Positions 321 through 6,600 of a DNA stretch of 37,966 nucleotides are shown piece by piece (position 1 is the first letter of the stretch; every line of letters starts with the position of its first letter). The position numbers and the translations under genes were made by a program. The stretch lies in NCBI GenBank assembly GCA_015231605.1, contig JADGBG010000007.1:1-37966 (forward strand), read 5' to 3'. The notes under the pieces were generated by a model, which ran no database searches, was not told the origin of the DNA, and worked only from the letters and a program-made list of their open reading frames with translations. Origin of the DNA: Alphaproteobacteria bacterium. Lineage in GTDB: Bacteria > Pseudomonadota > Alphaproteobacteria > Rhodospirillales > Magnetovibrionaceae.

Positions 321-2783
321 TCATGAGGATTTCTCCACCACCGCAGTCCCCGTGACATCGAAGACCACCTCGCGTCCCGAGAGCGACACCCGGACCCGGC
401 AATTATCGGGGCATTCGGCGTGCACGATCTTCATGGCGAGCGGATTTTCGATCTGACGCTCCACTTCGCGGCGCAATGGGCGCGCGCCATAGACCGGGTC
501 GAAGCCGTCCTCGGCCAATTTTTCGATGACCGCGCCGTCGACGTCGAGAACCACGCCCCGCCCCATCATCCGTTCGGCCAACTCGTCGACGAACATGGAG
601 GCGATGGTGCGCACGTGCTCGCGCTCCAGGTAATGAAACACGATGATGTCATCCAGCCTGTTGAGAAATTCGGGTTTGAAGAATTTCTTCACCTCGTGCA
701 TCACCAGGCTTTGCGCCTCTTCGTAGTCCGGCGTCTCGGACGTGATGAAGCCGATGGGCCGCTTGTCGGGCGATAAGGTTTCGGTCCCCAAATTCGACGT
801 GCCGATCAGGATGGTGTTGCGAAACGACACCGTTCGGCCCTGGGCGTCGGTAAGGCGTCCCTCGTCGAGGATTTGCAACAGCATGTTGAAAACATCCGGA
901 TGGGCCTTTTCGACCTCGTCCAGCAGCACCACGGTGTAGGGCGAGCGGCGCACCCGTTCGGTCAATTGGCCGCCTTCGCCGTAACCGATGTAACCGGGCG
1001 GCGCGCCGATCAGCTTGGAAACCTCGTGGCGTTCCATGTATTCCGACATGTCGATGCGCACGATACGGGTTTCATCGTCCAGCAGGAACGCGGCCAGGGC
1101 CTTTGCCAGTTCGGTCTTGCCCACGCCCGTCGGCCCCAGGAACAGGAACGAGCCGATCGGCCGCTTGGCGGACGTGATCCCCGCGCGGTTGCGGCGGATG
1201 GCGTTGGCGACGGCGGTGACGGCGTTTTCCTGGCCGACGATGCGTTTGTGCAGTTCGTCTTCCATGCGCGCCAGCTTTTCGGATTCCGTTTCCACCATGC
1301 GCGCGACCGGAATGCCGGTCCACTTCGCCACCACCTCGGCGATGTCCTGGGCGGTGACCACGGCCTCTTCCTCGCCCCGATCCCCCCGCCAACGGGCGCG
1401 GGCGCCCCGGATTTTTTCGTCCAGTTGCAGGATCTCCATTTGCAGCCGTGCGGCTTCTTCGAAGTTCTGAACGTTGAAGGCCTCGGTCTTTTCCCGGTTG
1501 AGTTTTTGATGCAGCCGTTCCAGACGGCCCACGTCATGAGGAATGGAACTGACCCGCAGGTGCTTGCGCGATCCCGCCTCGTCGATCAGGTCGACGGCCT
1601 TGTCGGGCAGCTTGCGGTCGCTCAGGTAGCGTTCCGAGAGCCGCGCCGCCGCATCGAAGGCTTCAGACAGGTATTTGATTTTATGATGTTTTTCATAGCG
1701 AGGCGCGATGCCCTTGAGAATCTCGATGGTGTCGTCCAGGCTCGGCTCGCGCACCAATATGGGATGAAACCGGCGTTCCAACGCCTTGTCGGCCTCGACG
1801 TACTTGCGGTATTCGTCCAACGTGTCCGCGCCGATCACCTGTAGATCGCCGTGCGCCAGGGCGGCTTTCAAAAGACTGGGCGCGTCGATGCCCCCCGCTC
1901 CCGCGCCGGCCCCCACCACGGTGTGCAATTCGTCGATGAACAAAATCACCTGCCCGCGCGCCTCGATCACCGCGTCGCGCACGGATTTGAGCCGTTGTTC
2001 GAATTCGCCGCGCATGCTGGCCCCGGCGACGATTTCGCCCATGTCCAGCGATAGGACCTTCTTGTTCAACAGTGTATCCGGCACGTCGGCGTTGACGATG
2101 CGTTGCGCAAGGCCTTCGACGATCACGGTCTTGCCCACGCCGGGCTCGCCGATCAGCACGGGATTGTTCTTCTTGCGCCTGGAAAGCGTCTGGATGATCG
2201 ACTGGATTTCCTCTTCGCGCCCGATCACGGGATCCAGTTCGCCGTTGTGCGCCATTTCGGTCAGGTCCTTGGTGTAGACCTTGAGCGCGTCTTCCTTGGT
2301 TTCGGCGTCCTGGGCCTGAAGCGTGCGCCCCGCGCGCAGTTCCTTCAGCGCGTCGCGGGCCTGCCCCTGGGTGACGCCGGTTTCCTTGAGCAACGGCGCG
2401 GTCATGCCGGCCTTGTCGTCGAACATGGCGATCAGCAACGTGCCGGTGCCGATGAACGCGTCGCCCAACGCCTTGGCCTCGGCCAGGGCGGTCTTGAACA
2501 GGTCCTCGACCTCCTGGGCCATGACGATCTGGGCGTTTTTCACCGGCGGGGTGGACTGGTGGCGCTGCTGGATCTTGCCGATCAACAGGCCGATGGCGTC
2601 ATCGGGGTCCGGCAGCAGCTTTTCGAAGATCCTGTAGGCTTCGGTGTCGGGCTGGGACAGCAACGCCATCAACAGGAAATCGGACGTGAGCACGTTCTGG
2701 CGCATGCCCGCCAGAACGCTCACGGCCGTTTCGATGGTCTCCACGACTTTCTGGGTGCTTTGCTGAACGTATTTTCGGAACAT
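321..2783 (-). CDS. ClpC-like AAA+ unfoldase (Clp/Hsp100 ATPase with UVR-type middle domain)
   Basis: Two-ring AAA+ protein unfoldase, 820 aa from the ATG at 2783. An in-frame GTG at 2813 would add ten residues. I prefer the ATG because [14 protein letters not shown] lines up with the usual start of the Clp N-domain and an AGG lies a few bases upstream. Order, numbered from the GTG: Clp N-domain (about 12-155); first ATPase module with GEPGVGKT (about 223) and Walker [10 protein letters not shown] (about 291); a short middle domain with a UVR-like helix [12 protein letters not shown] (about 450); second module with GPTGVGKTE (about 560) and [12 protein letters not shown] (about 628). A short UVR middle domain, not the long ClpB coiled coil, points to ClpC. 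IGF at about 687-689 sits where ClpC and ClpX carry their ClpP-docking loop, so partnership with ClpP is inferred. Oddity: GADTLDEYR in module 1, where the family usually has GATTLDEYR. No clpP or adaptor gene is nearby. Confidence 0.85.
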
Positions 2784-2852
2784 CGCGGACCTCGCACGCG
2801 GTTTCCGTGTCACATCCTATCATAAAACGGATTCGGGTGGTATTGAAGCGTT

Positions 2853-3566
2853 TCACAATCCGTCCAGGGTCGCCGCCAGGTCACCACCGGCGGCGATGGC
2901 GATTTTGGCTTCGATCAACCGCACCTGACCGGCCGCGCGCGCCAAGGCGACTTCCGCCGCCGTCATGGCGCGCATGAAATCGCCGATGGGAACCGTCCGG
3001 TCGGCGTCGTAGCGGTCCTGGGCATCCAACAGATTCAGGCGCTCCTCACCCCAAGCCGCCTTGGCCGTCTGCAAGGCCGCCCACGCGGCATCCCGCTCGG
3101 CCGACAGCGCGGGGGGCGTCCCGGCGGGCGCGTCCGGAAAGGTTTCCGGGGCCTCGGGCGCGACGGCCAGGGCGTCGGCGAAGGGAATGCCGGTCATGGC
3201 CTTCAACTTGGCGCGAAGCTGCTGGTTTTCGCCAATGACGCCGTCGCGTTCCGCCGCCACCGCCATCGCTTGATTTTCCAGCTCGGCCATAACGTCGGGG
3301 TTCGATCCGGCCTCGCGGGCGTTCATGATGGCGAACATGGAACCGGTACGGCGTTCGTCCATGTGTTGGACTTCCAGTTCCGAGGCATGAAGCGCGTAAT
3401 AGACCGTCAGCGCGTCGAGCACGGATTGCGGGGCCGCGCCGGACATGGCGCGGGCGAGTTCCGCGTCGGTCTTTGGCGATTGCGCCTGGGCGCCACCGGC
3501 GAACAGCGCGGCCAAGGCCAATGAGGTCACGGCGTAGATCCGGATCATCCAAAATGATTTCAACAT
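2853..3566 (-). CDS. Exported TolC-like alpha-hairpin protein, half family length
   Basis: Secreted protein of 237 aa from the ATG at 3566, which has GAGGG about eight bases upstream. A longer upstream reading lacks a ribosome site and would put 19 residues ahead of the signal peptide. MLKSFWMIRIYAVTSLALAA ending GGAQAQ is a clear Sec signal peptide. The mature part is long Ala-rich helices in two repeats: about 60-120 with AMTGIPFADAL, and about 155-230 with DRYDADRTVPIGDFMRA followed by AEVALARAAGQVRLIEAKI. The G-x-P after a long helix and the R-Y-D-A-x-R-T-V-P-I-x-D-F turn resemble the helical hairpins of TolC-type outer-membrane factors. The beta-barrel strands and the second half of a normal TolC (over 400 aa) are missing. 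It lies 10 bases behind the thioredoxin-fold gene, apparently last in a unit headed by a copper chaperone. Function is unproven; a degenerate efflux component or a periplasmic structural protein is possible. Confidence 0.6.
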   Translation of the reverse strand: MLKSFWMIRIYAVTSLALAALFAGGAQAQSPKTDAELARAMSGAAPQSVLDALTVYYALHASELEVQHMDERRTGSMFAIMNAREAGSNPDVMAELENQAMAVAAERDGVIGENQQLRAKLKAMTGIPFADALAVAPEAPETFPDAPAGTPPALSAERDAAWAALQTAKAAWGEERLNLLDAQDRYDADRTVPIGDFMRAMTAAEVALARAAGQVRLIEAKIAIAAGGDLAATLDGL

Positions 3567-3576
3567 ATTACAGCCC

Positions 3577-4095
3577 TCACTTTCCAGCGCGCACGAAATC
3601 CAGGAAGGTCGTGCCGTCCGCATAGGCGGCGGTGGCGACGTACCGACCGGCGGCCATGAACACGCCCGGTTCCTGGTATCCGGTCAGACGCAGGACATCC
3701 TTGCCGTCCTTGTCGAAATACACGAACAACGGCGTCGCGCGGGCGCGCATCGCGTTGGCGTATTCCTTTTCCGTGGTGGCTTCGCCGCCATGGGACACTA
3801 CGTCCAGGTCGCCCTTGATGTTCAGCTCCAGCATCACGAACGACGGCGTATACAGCGCCCCCACATCGGGGTTGGGAAAGACGCGCTTGTGCATCTTGGC
3901 GCAATACGGACAACCGTTCTGCCCGAACATGACGAACAGGGTTTTGCCATCCTCGGCCGCGGCGGCGATTTCAGCGGGCAGGTCGTAATCGATGGGTTCG
4001 ATAATGAAGTCGACCGCGCGCGCCGGTTGGGCAATCCCCAGCCCGGAGAAAAGAAGGGCCGCCGCCACGACGACGCGACCAATGAAGCTGTTCAT
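3577..4095 (-). CDS. Exported thioredoxin-fold protein (SoxW/DsbC-like, CPYC)
   Basis: Periplasmic thioredoxin-like protein of 172 aa. The start at 4095 (MNSFIGRVVV) is chosen over the ATG two codons upstream at 4101 because AGGGGAG then has normal spacing. MNSFIGRVVVAAALLFSGLG plus IAQPARA is a signal peptide. The mature part has the thioredoxin beta strand FVMFGQNGCPYCAKMHKRVF, with the redox pair in CPYC, and the conserved cis-proline region RATPLFVYFDKDGKDVLRL. Long inserts around NPDVGALYTPSFVMLELNIKG are typical of the thioredoxin_2/SoxW group that reduces periplasmic partners. It sits between a CopZ-like chaperone and a TolC-like protein, so a role in keeping copper-handling cysteines reduced is plausible. 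The fold and redox motif are seen; the substrate is a guess. Confidence 0.8.
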   Translation of the reverse strand: MNSFIGRVVVAAALLFSGLGIAQPARAVDFIIEPIDYDLPAEIAAAAEDGKTLFVMFGQNGCPYCAKMHKRVFPNPDVGALYTPSFVMLELNIKGDLDVVSHGGEATTEKEYANAMRARATPLFVYFDKDGKDVLRLTGYQEPGVFMAAGRYVATAAYADGTTFLDFVRAGK

Positions 4096-4136
4096 GGACA
4101 TTCTCCCCTTGTCACCGTTCCCCACGAACGGAATGC

Positions 4137-4340
4137 CTAGCCGGCACGGCCCTGAAATTCGAACCCGGCGGCCTCGACGGCACGTCGCACCTGGACGTCG
4201 TCGGCGCCGCTCACGGTGACGGTCTTGGCGGCCAGATCGACCTGGACCTCCGCGCCGGCGGACGCCTCCTTGATGGCGTTGGTGACGGAATTCGCGCATC
4301 CGCCACACGACATGCCGATAACTTTGTAAGTCGTGCTCAT
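4137..4340 (-). CDS. copZ: CopZ-like heavy-metal-associated (HMA) copper chaperone
   Basis: Small cytosolic metal chaperone of 67 aa, a single HMA domain. The start at 4340 (MSTTYKVIGMSCGGC) has GAGAGG eight bases upstream; the longer upstream reading has no support. The metal site is GMSCGGC, with two cysteines that bind Cu(I) in this family, and the beta-alpha-beta-beta-alpha-beta pattern is complete (VQVDLAAKTVTVSG, then VRRAVEAAGFEF). There is no signal peptide, which separates it from MerP. CopZ-type proteins carry Cu(I) to P1B-ATPases such as CopA, and a copA gene lies about 2.3 kb away on the same strand. It heads the unit continuing into the thioredoxin-fold and TolC-like genes (41-base and 10-base gaps). 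The exact metal cannot be read from sequence; copper is the most common. Confidence 0.85.
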   Translation of the reverse strand: MSTTYKVIGMSCGGCANSVTNAIKEASAGAEVQVDLAAKTVTVSGADDVQVRRAVEAAGFEFQGRAG

Positions 4341-4371
4341 GACGATCCTCTCGAGTGTTGACGAGTTCCCT

Positions 4372-4402
4372 ATCCTAACGCCCCCCGCGGCCTGCCCGTC
4401 AA
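4372..4402 (-). promoter_or_regulatory. Candidate promoter of the copZ unit with a 19-bp spacer
   Basis: On the minus strand TTGACG (4402-4397) and TAGGAT (4377-4372) are separated by 19 bp, and transcription would begin about 25 bases before the copZ ATG. A 19-20 bp spacer is characteristic of promoters activated by MerR-family regulators such as CueR. The spacer contains a CCGCGG palindrome, but I do not see the classic CCTTCC...GGAAGG dyad. The boxes match the consensus 5/6 and 4/6. Confidence 0.35.
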
Positions 4403-4478
4403 TGGCAATGTTGATCTTTTCCCGGCGCGACACAACATGGTGTATGCTAGTAGATGTATCGCGAGTGAGGATGGTCCC

Positions 4479-5192
4479 ATGTCAGACGTCACGGGCTCAT
4501 CGCCCGCCTCCATCGCCGCGTCCGTGCAAACTCTGCGTACGCTGTCCACGTCGTCCCCGACCACGGGCGATGGGTACAGGGCGGCCCTGCCCGCGTTCCT
4601 GACGGACGGCGTCAGTCCATACGATTACGCCGTCGTCCCCACCGACAAGGCCAGGGCGTTCCTGACCGCCGCCGTATTCATGGGCGACACCATTACGGGC
4701 ATGCTGCAAGGGCTGGTCAAAGCCGCCGAGGTCGCCGCGTCCTCGCTGACCAAAACGGACGCCAACATCTACGTGGCGTACGGAACCCGCATCAGCGTCG
4801 GAAACATTTCCGCGGACATCAAGCGCACCCTGGAGCGCATCGACGAACTGGTGGAAAACAGCGCCGTGGGCGGGGCCAATCTGTTGTCCAGCGCGTCTCC
4901 CACCATCTCGTTGCGCACCACCCTGCACGGGGGAGAAATCAAGCTGTCGCCCCAGCCGCTGGACACGGCGGGGCTGAACCTTCAAGGCATGGACCTGCAC
5001 AAGTCCGGAGGGACGCAGGAGGCGGTCGCCCTGCTGCGCGCCGCCGTGCGGATCGCGGAACAGCGCACCGAAGGACTGCGCCTGTTGGACGGGGCGATCA
5101 ACGGAACCTCGCCGTTCACCAGCAAGCTCGCGTCCCTACAGGCCACGGGGGCGTCCGAACTCCGGGGGCTGCTGGTGAACCTGTTCGCCTAA
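4479..5192 (+). CDS. Flagellin-like protein of unknown function
   Basis: 237 aa from the ATG at 4479, with GTGAGG eight bases upstream; an earlier in-frame ATG at 4437 lacks a ribosome site. No signal peptide or membrane segment. The layout resembles flagellin: an N-terminal helical part (about 55-135) ending RTLERIDELVENSAVGGANL, close to the flagellin pattern of a long helix followed by FNGxNLL; a short variable middle; and a C-terminal part GLNLQGMDL followed by a helix AVALLRAAVRIAEQRTEGLR that mirrors the flagellin C-terminal helix. The match is distant and the usual N-terminal SLxAxRxL helix is not obvious. It stands alone, without flagellar genes, and ends in a 4-base convergent overlap with the deacetylase gene. 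It could be a diverged flagellin-fold filament or cap protein; I would not assign a function. Confidence 0.6.
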   Translation: MSDVTGSSPASIAASVQTLRTLSTSSPTTGDGYRAALPAFLTDGVSPYDYAVVPTDKARAFLTAAVFMGDTITGMLQGLVKAAEVAASSLTKTDANIYVAYGTRISVGNISADIKRTLERIDELVENSAVGGANLLSSASPTISLRTTLHGGEIKLSPQPLDTAGLNLQGMDLHKSGGTQEAVALLRAAVRIAEQRTEGLRLLDGAINGTSPFTSKLASLQATGASELRGLLVNLFA

Positions 5193-6370
5193 CCGTGGTA
5201 TCCGGAGATGGATTGCGTGCTTTTTTGCAGCCGCGAACGCATCACGGCGCTGATGGGAACGACGTGGACGCCGCGCGCGCGGGCCTCGACCATCCAGGTC
5301 TTGAGCACTTCGATGGTGGCGTCGCGCGGATGGCCGATGGCGATGGCGTAACCGTGCTTGCGCGCCAACGTTTCCGCCGCGTCCAGTTGCTTGAGCACCT
5401 CGTCCGGGTCGTTGACGTTGTCCAGAAACACGTTGCGTTCCAGCGCCGCAAGGCCCAGGTCCCGCGCCACCTTCGGGCCGACGGTCTTGCTCGACGTGCG
5501 GCTGTCCAGGAACATCAGGCCGCGCTTTTGGATCTCCTCCAACACCACGCGCATGGCGCGGGCGTCCTCGGTGAAGCGGCTGCCCATGTGGTTGTTGACG
5601 CCGACGAATCCGTCGAACCGGTCCATTCCCCAGTTGGCGAGGGTACGCAACTCGCCGTCCGGCATGCTCGACATCAGCACGTTGGGGCCCGGATCGATGG
5701 CTCCGTTGCCGGGTTCCATGGACATGTGCAGGAACAACTCGTGCCCGCTTTCGCGCGCCGCGCGGGATTGTTCGGGCAAATCTTCGGCATAGGTCATGAA
5801 AGACAGTGTCAACGGTCCCGGCACGTCTTCCCACATGCGCCGGGATCGTGCGCGGTCCACGCCCATGTCGTCGATGACCACGGCGACCATCGGCGCGTCC
5901 CCGGCCCCGCTTTCGGCGGGCAAGGCATTGGCCAGCCATGCCGGGTCTTGGGTCCGTTCGACCAGGCCGTCCAAGGTATCATGTTCGATGGCCGCGATTT
6001 GCGCGGCATTTGGCAAAGGCGCGGGCTCGTGCACGGTTTCGTGCTCGTGCACCATTTCCTCATAGGCCGGCCGTTCCGGTTCGCCGTGCGCGTTGGGGTC
6101 GGCCAGGATCACCCCCCGCTCGTCCGCGGTTTGCTGGATCACCACGGGACCGGACGGCTTCGCCGCGCCGCGCCCATGGCCGAACAGCGTTTCCGCGCCC
6201 CAATAGCCGACGCCCATGGCGAGACCCAGCACGGCGCCGAACGCCAGCACCCCGGCCACGGGAAAGCCCCCCGCACTGCCCCACACATGCCAGCCCAAAC
6301 GACGGCGCGCCTCGTGCTTGGCGGCGGTGCGCTTGGCGTGCGTGCGGGAATGATCACTCTTTCGTGACAT
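5189..6370 (-). CDS. Divergent polysaccharide deacetylase family protein (YibQ-type)
   Basis: 393 aa from the ATG at 6370, with AAGGAAGG about six bases upstream. A basic N-terminus (about 1-25) precedes one membrane anchor, FPVAGVLAFGAVLGLAMGVG, then a low-complexity linker rich in Glu, His and Pro, then the catalytic-like domain from about 165. That domain contains VAVVIDDMGVD, HLxMEPGN-like and NNHMGSRFT segments and AIGHPRDATIEVL, the marks of the divergent polysaccharide deacetylase (DUF610/YibQ) family with a carbohydrate esterase 4-like barrel. Such proteins are anchored in the inner membrane facing the periplasm. In many alphaproteobacteria a relative sits beside the carboxy-terminal protease gene ctpA, but here it stands alone. 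Its true substrate is not established. Confidence 0.85.
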   Translation of the reverse strand: MSRKSDHSRTHAKRTAAKHEARRRLGWHVWGSAGGFPVAGVLAFGAVLGLAMGVGYWGAETLFGHGRGAAKPSGPVVIQQTADERGVILADPNAHGEPERPAYEEMVHEHETVHEPAPLPNAAQIAAIEHDTLDGLVERTQDPAWLANALPAESGAGDAPMVAVVIDDMGVDRARSRRMWEDVPGPLTLSFMTYAEDLPEQSRAARESGHELFLHMSMEPGNGAIDPGPNVLMSSMPDGELRTLANWGMDRFDGFVGVNNHMGSRFTEDARAMRVVLEEIQKRGLMFLDSRTSSKTVGPKVARDLGLAALERNVFLDNVNDPDEVLKQLDAAETLARKHGYAIAIGHPRDATIEVLKTWMVEARARGVHVVPISAVMRSRLQKSTQSISGYHG

Positions 6371-6470
6371 GAAGGGCCTTCCTTGGGCGGGCGGGACTCG
6401 GTTTTTTAGAATTCACGGGAATGGGAACGCCGTCAACGCCATCGGTTGCGGTCGAGGATAACAAGAAGAC

Positions 6471-6600
6471 ATGAACGATTTATTGGTTTGGTCGGTCGCG
6501 TTCGAAACCGGAAACCCGATGGTTGACCACGAACACAAAGCCCTGCTCCAACTCCCCCACCTCGGGATGCGGGCCGCCGTTCACGGACAGAAACGTCAGC
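6471..6600 (+). pseudogene. 5' remnant of a bacteriohemerythrin gene, truncated at the copA end
   Basis: From the ATG at 6471 the translation begins MNDLLVWSVAFETGNPMVD and continues EHKALLQL. The pattern W-x(5)-ETGNP-x-VDxEHKxL is the start of bacteriohemerythrins, including the first iron-ligand histidine of the EHK motif. Similarity fades over the next 15 residues (MRAAVHG may be the last recognisable piece). From about 6600 the frame only runs antisense to the end of copA and stops at 6743 without the remaining iron ligands (HFxxEE, HxxxH). A whole bacteriohemerythrin is about 130-200 aa, so at most a third is present. A short translated peptide is possible, but an iron-binding protein is not. 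Confidence 0.6.

Follow-up and report, generated by a model that had tools for sequence, protein, structure and literature searches.

A three-gene unit located next to copper genes was analysed in a 37,966-nucleotide stretch of DNA, hereafter the window (positions 1 to 37,966 of contig JADGBG010000007.1, assembly GCA_015231605.1), from an alphaproteobacterium of the family Magnetovibrionaceae. The unit encodes a CopZ-like copper chaperone, an exported thioredoxin-fold protein and a 237-residue relative of the outer-membrane factor (OMF) TolC. OMFs are known as outer-membrane conduits. The relative found here, which together with its orthologues is termed the half-OMF, lacks the parts that form the membrane barrel and is accompanied by a thioredoxin gene in every locus examined. 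Related bacteria have the same trio alongside a copper-sensing regulator, which suggests that half an efflux channel was recruited in the periplasm as an accessory of the copper response.

All three genes lie on the minus strand. The HMA gene comes first, followed by the thioredoxin gene and the gene of the TolC-like protein, with stop-to-start gaps of 41 and 10 bases. An initial annotation, made from the sequence alone, had described three co-directional and closely spaced genes, and their positions and order were confirmed:

4137..4340, minus strand: copZ-like HMA copper chaperone, 67 aa, motif GMSCGGC; Pfam HMA, 52.2 bits (cut-off 24.8)
3577..4095, minus strand: exported thioredoxin-fold protein, 172 aa, CPYC, cis-Pro motif TP; Pfam Thioredoxin_2, 73 bits (cut-off 27)
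2853..3566, minus strand: barrel-less OMF derivative (TolC type), 237 aa; four long helices preceded by a signal peptide

The barrel-less TolC relative and its partners

The CopZ-like protein contained a single HMA domain with the MxCxxC motif of a chaperone, and it remained under the NCBIfam CopZ equivalog cut-off (best match CopZ_AFE_1862, 46.4 against 85 bits). The Thioredoxin_2 domain spanned residues 46-146 of the 172-residue window thioredoxin, in which Pfam showed no additional domain, and CPYC and TP were invariant in 9/9 aligned thioredoxins. Signal peptides were judged by eye for all three proteins; they were present in the thioredoxin and the 237-residue protein and absent from the CopZ-like protein, which is thus taken as cytosolic. 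Therefore, just two of the three products would be periplasmic, and the periplasmic module proposed in the initial annotation holds for the exported pair but not for the chaperone.

The 237-residue protein matched no family in Pfam (OEP included) or NCBIfam. Its earlier label as TolC-like was nevertheless right, since hhalign aligned it with its intact paralogue, the OMF of a sister module described below, at a probability of 99.0 and an E-value of 8.4e-18. The alignment omitted residues 1-117 and ~100 middle residues of the intact OMF, and the omitted stretches contained both strand hairpins, as located by alignment with E. coli TolC. The AlphaFold2 model built from eight half-OMF sequences (mean pLDDT 88.5) comprised helices at residues 46-85, 90-125, 152-189 and 194-225 and no strand. 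Its best PDB match by VIA-align was open TolC (9tg4_A; Z 18.0, rmsd 2.6 Å, 204 residues). The first 29 rows were all OMFs (Z ≥ 9.4) and the next row had a Z of 7.2; values below ~13 can mean little with helical models, and the best 15 rows exceeded 13. OMFs also headed the Foldseek list (best E 0.011, probability 1.00, none < 0.001). Direct profile comparison with E. coli TolC alone gave nothing (hhalign probability 0.1, E 0.57), and a PDB sequence search with the half-OMF profile found no TolC. Thus, the link to TolC comes from the intact paralogue and the structural match, and not from direct profile comparison. Remote homology and structure prediction, both suggested as checks in the initial annotation, indicated a true TolC relative and no unrelated family.

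Below the equatorial domain of TolC, H3/H4 and H7/H8 are described as two coiled coils that form the adaptor interface (PMC8277102). These two hairpins of the periplasmic half were present in the half-OMF, and the two OEP repeats of an OMF, each with a transmembrane beta-hairpin, were not. On sequence and model, the half-OMF thus appears to be a TolC cut near the equator, in which the lower coiled coil of both repeats was kept and the barrel and most of the upper cylinder are gone. It is predicted by the model to be soluble and not an outer-membrane channel. The protein had been called half-size, which was right, but the loss concerned both beta-hairpins and most upper helices instead of one repeat.

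The window protein was 35-50% identical to its relatives, and 32 columns were invariant in an alignment of 10 sequences. An LHxS motif, close to where the first retained helix begins, was found in 11/11 half-OMFs and 14/14 intact OMFs, which also shared several second-hairpin residues. The frame was open across the whole domain in all 11 loci not truncated by a contig end. Between G007 and G010, dN and dS were 0.173 and 0.935 by NG86 and 0.168 and 1.011 by YN00 (ratio ~0.17-0.19); the NG86 values were 0.283 and 1.658 between G013 and G010, and the G015-G006 pair was saturated (dS 5.5). These substitution rates indicate that the half-OMF is under purifying selection.

A thioredoxin-OMF pair behind a CueR-type copper cluster

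Homologues were searched for in 60 genomes, 18 of the same family (Magnetovibrio and kin) and 42 others; the source genome (G000) is 3.18 Mb in size and 99% complete. The half-OMF was present in 12/18 family genomes and 0/42 others. One of the 12 copies (G004) was truncated by a contig end to 178 residues and was excluded from the OMF tree, and four of the six family genomes without the half-OMF were only 59-86% complete. G022 outside the family and G001 and G008 within it matched solely via a longer OMF. Of eight named loci with a half-OMF, four bore Magnetovibrio names (one of them M. blakemorei MV-1) and four were Rhodospirillaceae or Thalassospiraceae bins, and on this basis the family is taken to be that of Magnetovibrio. 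A profile search gave any match in 24/317 genomes of the order and 3/385 of the class sample, both of which include the window genome. The profile matches outside the family were longer OMFs or, in G127, pieces of an OMF split across two contigs (L132, excluded from the tables).

The loci were chosen via their OMF and not via the thioredoxin. The thioredoxin gene was directly upstream of the half-OMF in 12/12 loci, with an HMA gene upstream of the thioredoxin; in L031, a DUF3995 gene was interposed in this array. Measured between alignment ends, the thioredoxin and OMF genes were 8-34 bases apart. The exception was G004 with 96 bases, whose OMF match begins within the gene. The conserved co-occurrence that the initial annotation had asked about was therefore found, and the unit was copper-linked as it had claimed, with an HMA gene upstream in every half-OMF locus. 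A chance neighbourhood of the trio was rejected on the same count. In three loci, a second thioredoxin-like protein (CWTC or CKSC) followed the half-OMF (L036:452-1210, L037:1876-2526, L039:4746-5387).

Three further features of the window belong to the copper cluster:

5189..6370, minus strand: divergent polysaccharide deacetylase; Pfam PF04748, 247 bits
6596..9022, minus strand: copA, encoding a P1B-type copper ATPase that carries two HMA domains; NCBIfam TIGR01511, 578 bits (cut-off 397)
4372..4402, minus strand: TTGACG-19 bp-TAGGAT, most likely a decayed CueR-type promoter; 11/18 consensus positions

As in a CueR-type cluster, copA and the CopZ-like gene were both present in the window. 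Among the half-OMF loci, copA was found in 10/11 contigs reaching its place. Within the locus searched, L034, the G003 cluster, had no copA match before cueR, and a CueR box was located upstream of this cueR (both observations at L034:9983-10176). The deacetylase was upstream of copZ in 12/12 clusters with the trio and 4/4 without it, and adjoined cueR in all 12 cueR-bearing clusters; it is a conserved neighbour in the copper cluster. The clusters of G005, G008, G011 and G001 contained copA, cueR, the deacetylase, the box and copZ, and no thioredoxin or OMF match after copZ. Since these four clusters end at copZ, the thioredoxin and the half-OMF form an add-on to a pre-existing CueR cluster. 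The pair looks like an optional addition, explained either by one or more gains or by several losses. The earlier view that the operon is not a textbook one was therefore justified for the unusual thioredoxin-OMF pair; the core of copA, cueR and copZ in relatives is the known CueR-type set.

CueR (NCBIfam TIGR02044) was above its cut-off in 11/18 family genomes. Sixteen clusters, 12 with the trio and four without, were examined for cueR and its box, the window included. By tblastn, cueR was detected in 12 of them (8 with and 4 without the trio), which corresponds to 8/11 scorable trio clusters, the contig of L037 being too short to score. In the 11 cueR clusters with copA, it was flanked by copA on one side and by the deacetylase on the other. 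The box TTGACCTTCC-N8-GAAGG-N-TTA was found before copZ at 16-18 of 18 positions in 12/16 clusters (12/15 excluding the window; 8/12 trio clusters). Such a score was matched by 0/300 single-base shuffles in each of those 12 regions, where the shuffles preserved base composition only. The box consensus, like the strand-motif patterns used below, was drawn up post hoc from inspected sequences. The box was present in 11/12 cueR-bearing clusters and in none of the three without cueR (window, G006 and G015, at 11, 10 and 13/18), and CueR-type operators also preceded copA in several relatives. A first, stricter genome-wide pattern matched 2/18 genomes and its reversed control once (G003), and a wider pattern was substituted. 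This gave 39 boxes in 13/18 genomes and 0/18 for the reversed control; those upstream of copZ and copA in the clusters were inspected. The same scan found no box in the window genome, G006, G015, G014 or G016. Because the genomes are few and related, the association of cueR and box is suggestive and does not amount to a test.

A long-spacer promoter before copZ had been proposed as a possibility for the window, and the outer coordinate given for the unit, 4402, coincides with the 5' edge of TTGACG-19 bp-TAGGAT. In relatives this proposal agreed with a MerR-type, 19-bp CueR promoter. In the window, TTGACG-19-TAGGAT was equalled by 23/300 shuffles and was weak on its own. No CueR box was found there even allowing three mismatches, the dyad CCTTCC..GGAAGG of the relatives was not retained, and a sigma-70 scan with spacers of 16-18 gave no promoter. 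The window genome had 0 matches to TIGR02044, and the clusters of G000, G006 and G015 yielded neither cueR nor the operator. In relatives, cueR occupies the place between copA and the deacetylase; the window leaves just 225 bases between these two genes (6371-6595). The match in the window gains meaning because an unambiguous CueR box precedes copZ in 12/15 other clusters. Judged by this comparison, it most likely represents what is left, after decay, of a CueR promoter whose genome has lost cueR, and the 13/18 box of G015 may likewise be a remnant.

Two neighbouring genes were observed in addition. The gene at 4476-5192 (plus strand) lies between copZ and the deacetylase and is divergent from copZ. 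Its product was flagellin-like by eye and matched nothing in Pfam or NCBIfam, and tblastn matches occurred in 4/11 related trio clusters (L030, L032, L033 and L038, the last weak). A Clp-type AAA+ ATPase gene (321-2813, minus strand) starts 39 bases past the half-OMF. Its product was below the NCBIfam cut-off for all 18 families listed (best ClpB, 978 against 1232), and it had no match within the related trio clusters.

The sister module and repeated loss of the barrel

In a sister module, a homologous thioredoxin was accompanied by an OMF, ~460 aa long when intact, and by an adaptor of 170 aa containing a lipoyl-like stretch. It was found in the window genome (G000:C73, L041:7303-9653) and at 16 other loci. 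The thioredoxin adjoined the OMF in 29/29 loci (12/12 half, 17/17 sister; one thioredoxin was truncated by a contig end). The sister OMF was intact in 14/17 loci. The OMFs of G001 and G029 (340-residue frames) and of G067 had no strand hairpins, although that of G067 seems to retain part of the first strand, and their thioredoxin and adaptor were still in place. The reduced sister OMFs were located as follows:

L046:8037-9059: reduced sister OMF
L048:3276-4298: reduced sister OMF
L125 (G067): reduced sister OMF

The comparison of barrel loss covered the thioredoxin-linked OMFs, namely those of the copper cluster and the sister module. The strand motifs were present in 14/14 intact OMFs, 0/3 reduced sister OMFs and 0/12 half-OMFs. 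In the OMF tree (222 shared columns), the 11 half-OMFs formed one clade (100/100). The G001 and G029 copies were paired (100/98) and nested in intact OMFs (83/84), and G067 stood apart with weak support. The reduced label required three changes, of which the well-supported branches force at least two; by the tree, reduced OMFs would thus have arisen at least twice. When rooted, the tree placed the half-OMF clade outside the sister OMFs of the order; this placement depends on a long branch and may be an artefact, and no duplication age is claimed. The thioredoxin tree gave the same split between copper-cluster and sister copies (100/97). Both trees grouped the copper-cluster copies together, as expected if the pair moved together.

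Proposed function, alternatives and known systems

The sequences show the gene order, the relatives' operators, the homology, that the membrane part was lost, that selection is purifying and that thioredoxin and OMF are constantly paired. From this we propose, with slightly less than even confidence, a periplasmic thiol-redox unit for copper stress, in which the thioredoxin would work with a TolC-derived coiled-coil scaffold; its biochemistry is inferred. A CueR-type cluster (copA, cueR, deacetylase, copZ) would first have gained the pair behind copZ. In relatives, copZ, the thioredoxin and the OMF derivative would be induced jointly by excess copper, through putative co-transcription. CopZ would pass Cu(I) to CopA, and CopA would move it to the periplasm. 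There, the thioredoxin may reduce or reshuffle disulfides misformed by copper, or may bind Cu(I) on its CPYC cysteines. The OMF derivative could serve it as an oligomeric coiled-coil scaffold, a role that presupposes a contact and trimerisation. As the thioredoxin is the constant partner, the LHxSE end is proposed to hold it. Our guess, by analogy, is that a separate trimeric scaffold would serve a single-domain thioredoxin as the trimerisation domain of ScsC serves its own protein. A wider evolutionary reading, which we hold a little more tentatively, is that, in a group of alphaproteobacteria, the entrance half of a TolC-type channel was repeatedly freed from the membrane as a soluble periplasmic coiled-coil platform for a dedicated thioredoxin, and that one such pair then came under CueR control.

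Several observations weighed against the proposed copper-stress unit. The operator of the window was decayed and its genome gave no CueR, which makes the window itself the weakest case for a copper link. G006 and G015 resembled the window, no cueR or operator being found, and the weak G015 box was reached by 1/300 shuffles. L036 bears CueR yet has no box before copZ, and G007 (L037) has a box although its genome, 90% complete, gave no CueR match. Eight sister loci were tested for copA and HMA genes and none showed a match; therefore, the basic job of the pair need not concern copper. The half-OMF had no conserved cysteine, and the structure model of the window thioredoxin was poor (mean pLDDT 48.6). 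Finally, the thioredoxin tree paired G029 with G067 (96/81), whereas the OMF tree paired it with G001 (100/98). Because of this conflict, the number of sister reductions may differ from that in the OMF tree, and the G001-G029 pairing may be due to long-branch attraction.

Among the alternatives, the half-OMF might block, open or extend an efflux conduit by docking on an adaptor in the periplasm, such as the 170-aa protein of the sister module, the thioredoxin being secondary. The retained H3/H4 and H7/H8 coiled coils are the adaptor interface in TolC (PMC8277102), and the two best structural matches were TolC in assembled AcrAB pumps (9tg4_A and 5ng5_C). The second tip of the half-OMF was among its best conserved segments (mean majority share 0.69), but the first tip was poorly conserved (0.49), all 12 half-OMF stretches lacked a match resembling the adaptor gene of the sister module, and the invariable partner was the thioredoxin. 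We regard docking as unlikely. A slightly smaller chance is given to copper delivery, in which the thioredoxin and its scaffold would hand copper exported by CopA to cuproenzymes such as cbb3 oxidase, in the manner of TlpA, ScoI and PcuC. TlpA-type reduction of copper chaperones occurs in alphaproteobacteria, and the cluster here combines a CopA-type pump with a chaperone and with a CxxC thioredoxin of the periplasm. However, CueR boxes mark a response to copper excess and not an assembly pathway.

That the half-OMF is a functionless, decaying fragment of a duplicated OMF gene was considered very improbable. It is a truncated paralogue with modest identity to its relatives, and the G002 frame was two residues shorter than the others. 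Against decay stand the open frame in 11 loci, the invariant columns, the confident fold and the parallel reduction in three other loci, and the pseudogene reading was rejected on the clade support (100/100) and the dN/dS of ~0.17-0.19. An ordinary channel subunit of the outer membrane, for which the clear OMF homology would speak, is hardly credible and was rejected, as the model had no beta strand and neither strand motif of the 14/14 intact OMFs was present.

If the reading of a freed platform is true, the lower half of TolC would be a self-standing module for which the membrane barrel is dispensable. A Gram-negative lineage retains barrel-less OMF genes with a thioredoxin beside each in all loci examined, which makes a channel-free job for the periplasmic half of TolC testable, and likewise the function of the thioredoxin-OMF-adaptor module. 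Two periplasmic proteins are also added to a CueR-type copper response, as a candidate for keeping periplasmic thiols ordered under copper.

In the literature searched, from which subscription sources were largely absent, no Gram-negative barrel-less OMF, thioredoxin-OMF module or copper unit of this kind was found, and the accessible text of PMC10141476 and PMC13082787 did not mention the unit. The copper core is known; within these bounds, the barrel-less OMF and its pairing with a thioredoxin beside that core appear to be new. The cluster shares copA and copZ with the CueR (cue-cop) regulon, and in relatives the likeness extends to a CueR that passes the NCBIfam cut-off and to operators of CueR type before copZ. 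It differs from this regulon in the deacetylase and in the exported thioredoxin and barrel-less OMF behind copZ, and in the window genome also in that cueR and the operator were not found. With TolC, OprM and CusC (Pfam OEP, PF02321), the half-OMF has in common the lower coiled-coil half, in fold as well as in sequence, with its two repeats; unlike them, it has no beta-hairpins, no OEP match and little of the upper alpha-cylinder, and is not predicted to enter the membrane. TolC-like proteins that lack part of the beta-barrel domain and likewise stand apart from the usual outer-membrane setting were described in monoderm Firmicutes (C. difficile), where an S-layer setting and tripartite pump genes were proposed and a modelled hydrophilic barrel domain remains (PMC8809574). 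In contrast, the half-OMF is alphaproteobacterial, has no barrel hairpin and stands beside thioredoxin and copper genes. The sister module has the homologous thioredoxin-OMF pair, and 3/17 of its loci carry reduced OMFs too; it differs from the copper unit in its mini adaptor, its mostly intact OMF (14/17) and, in the 8 loci tested, the lack of matches to copA or HMA. ScsC, a thioredoxin-fold isomerase of the copper response, loses its isomerase activity in Proteus mirabilis when the trimerisation domain is removed (PMC5524982), and the Caulobacter protein is a trimer that binds Cu(I) (PMC8900818). The likeness to ScsC would lie in the periplasmic thioredoxin fold, the copper response and the importance that helix-based oligomerisation has in ScsC. 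In the scsABCD operon the partners scsB and scsD accompany scsC; the conserved neighbours observed here were copA, cueR, the deacetylase and copZ. ScsC has its own N-terminal trimerisation helices in one chain, whereas here Pfam recognises one Thioredoxin_2 domain in the thioredoxin, and its helical partner would be a separate, TolC-derived protein.

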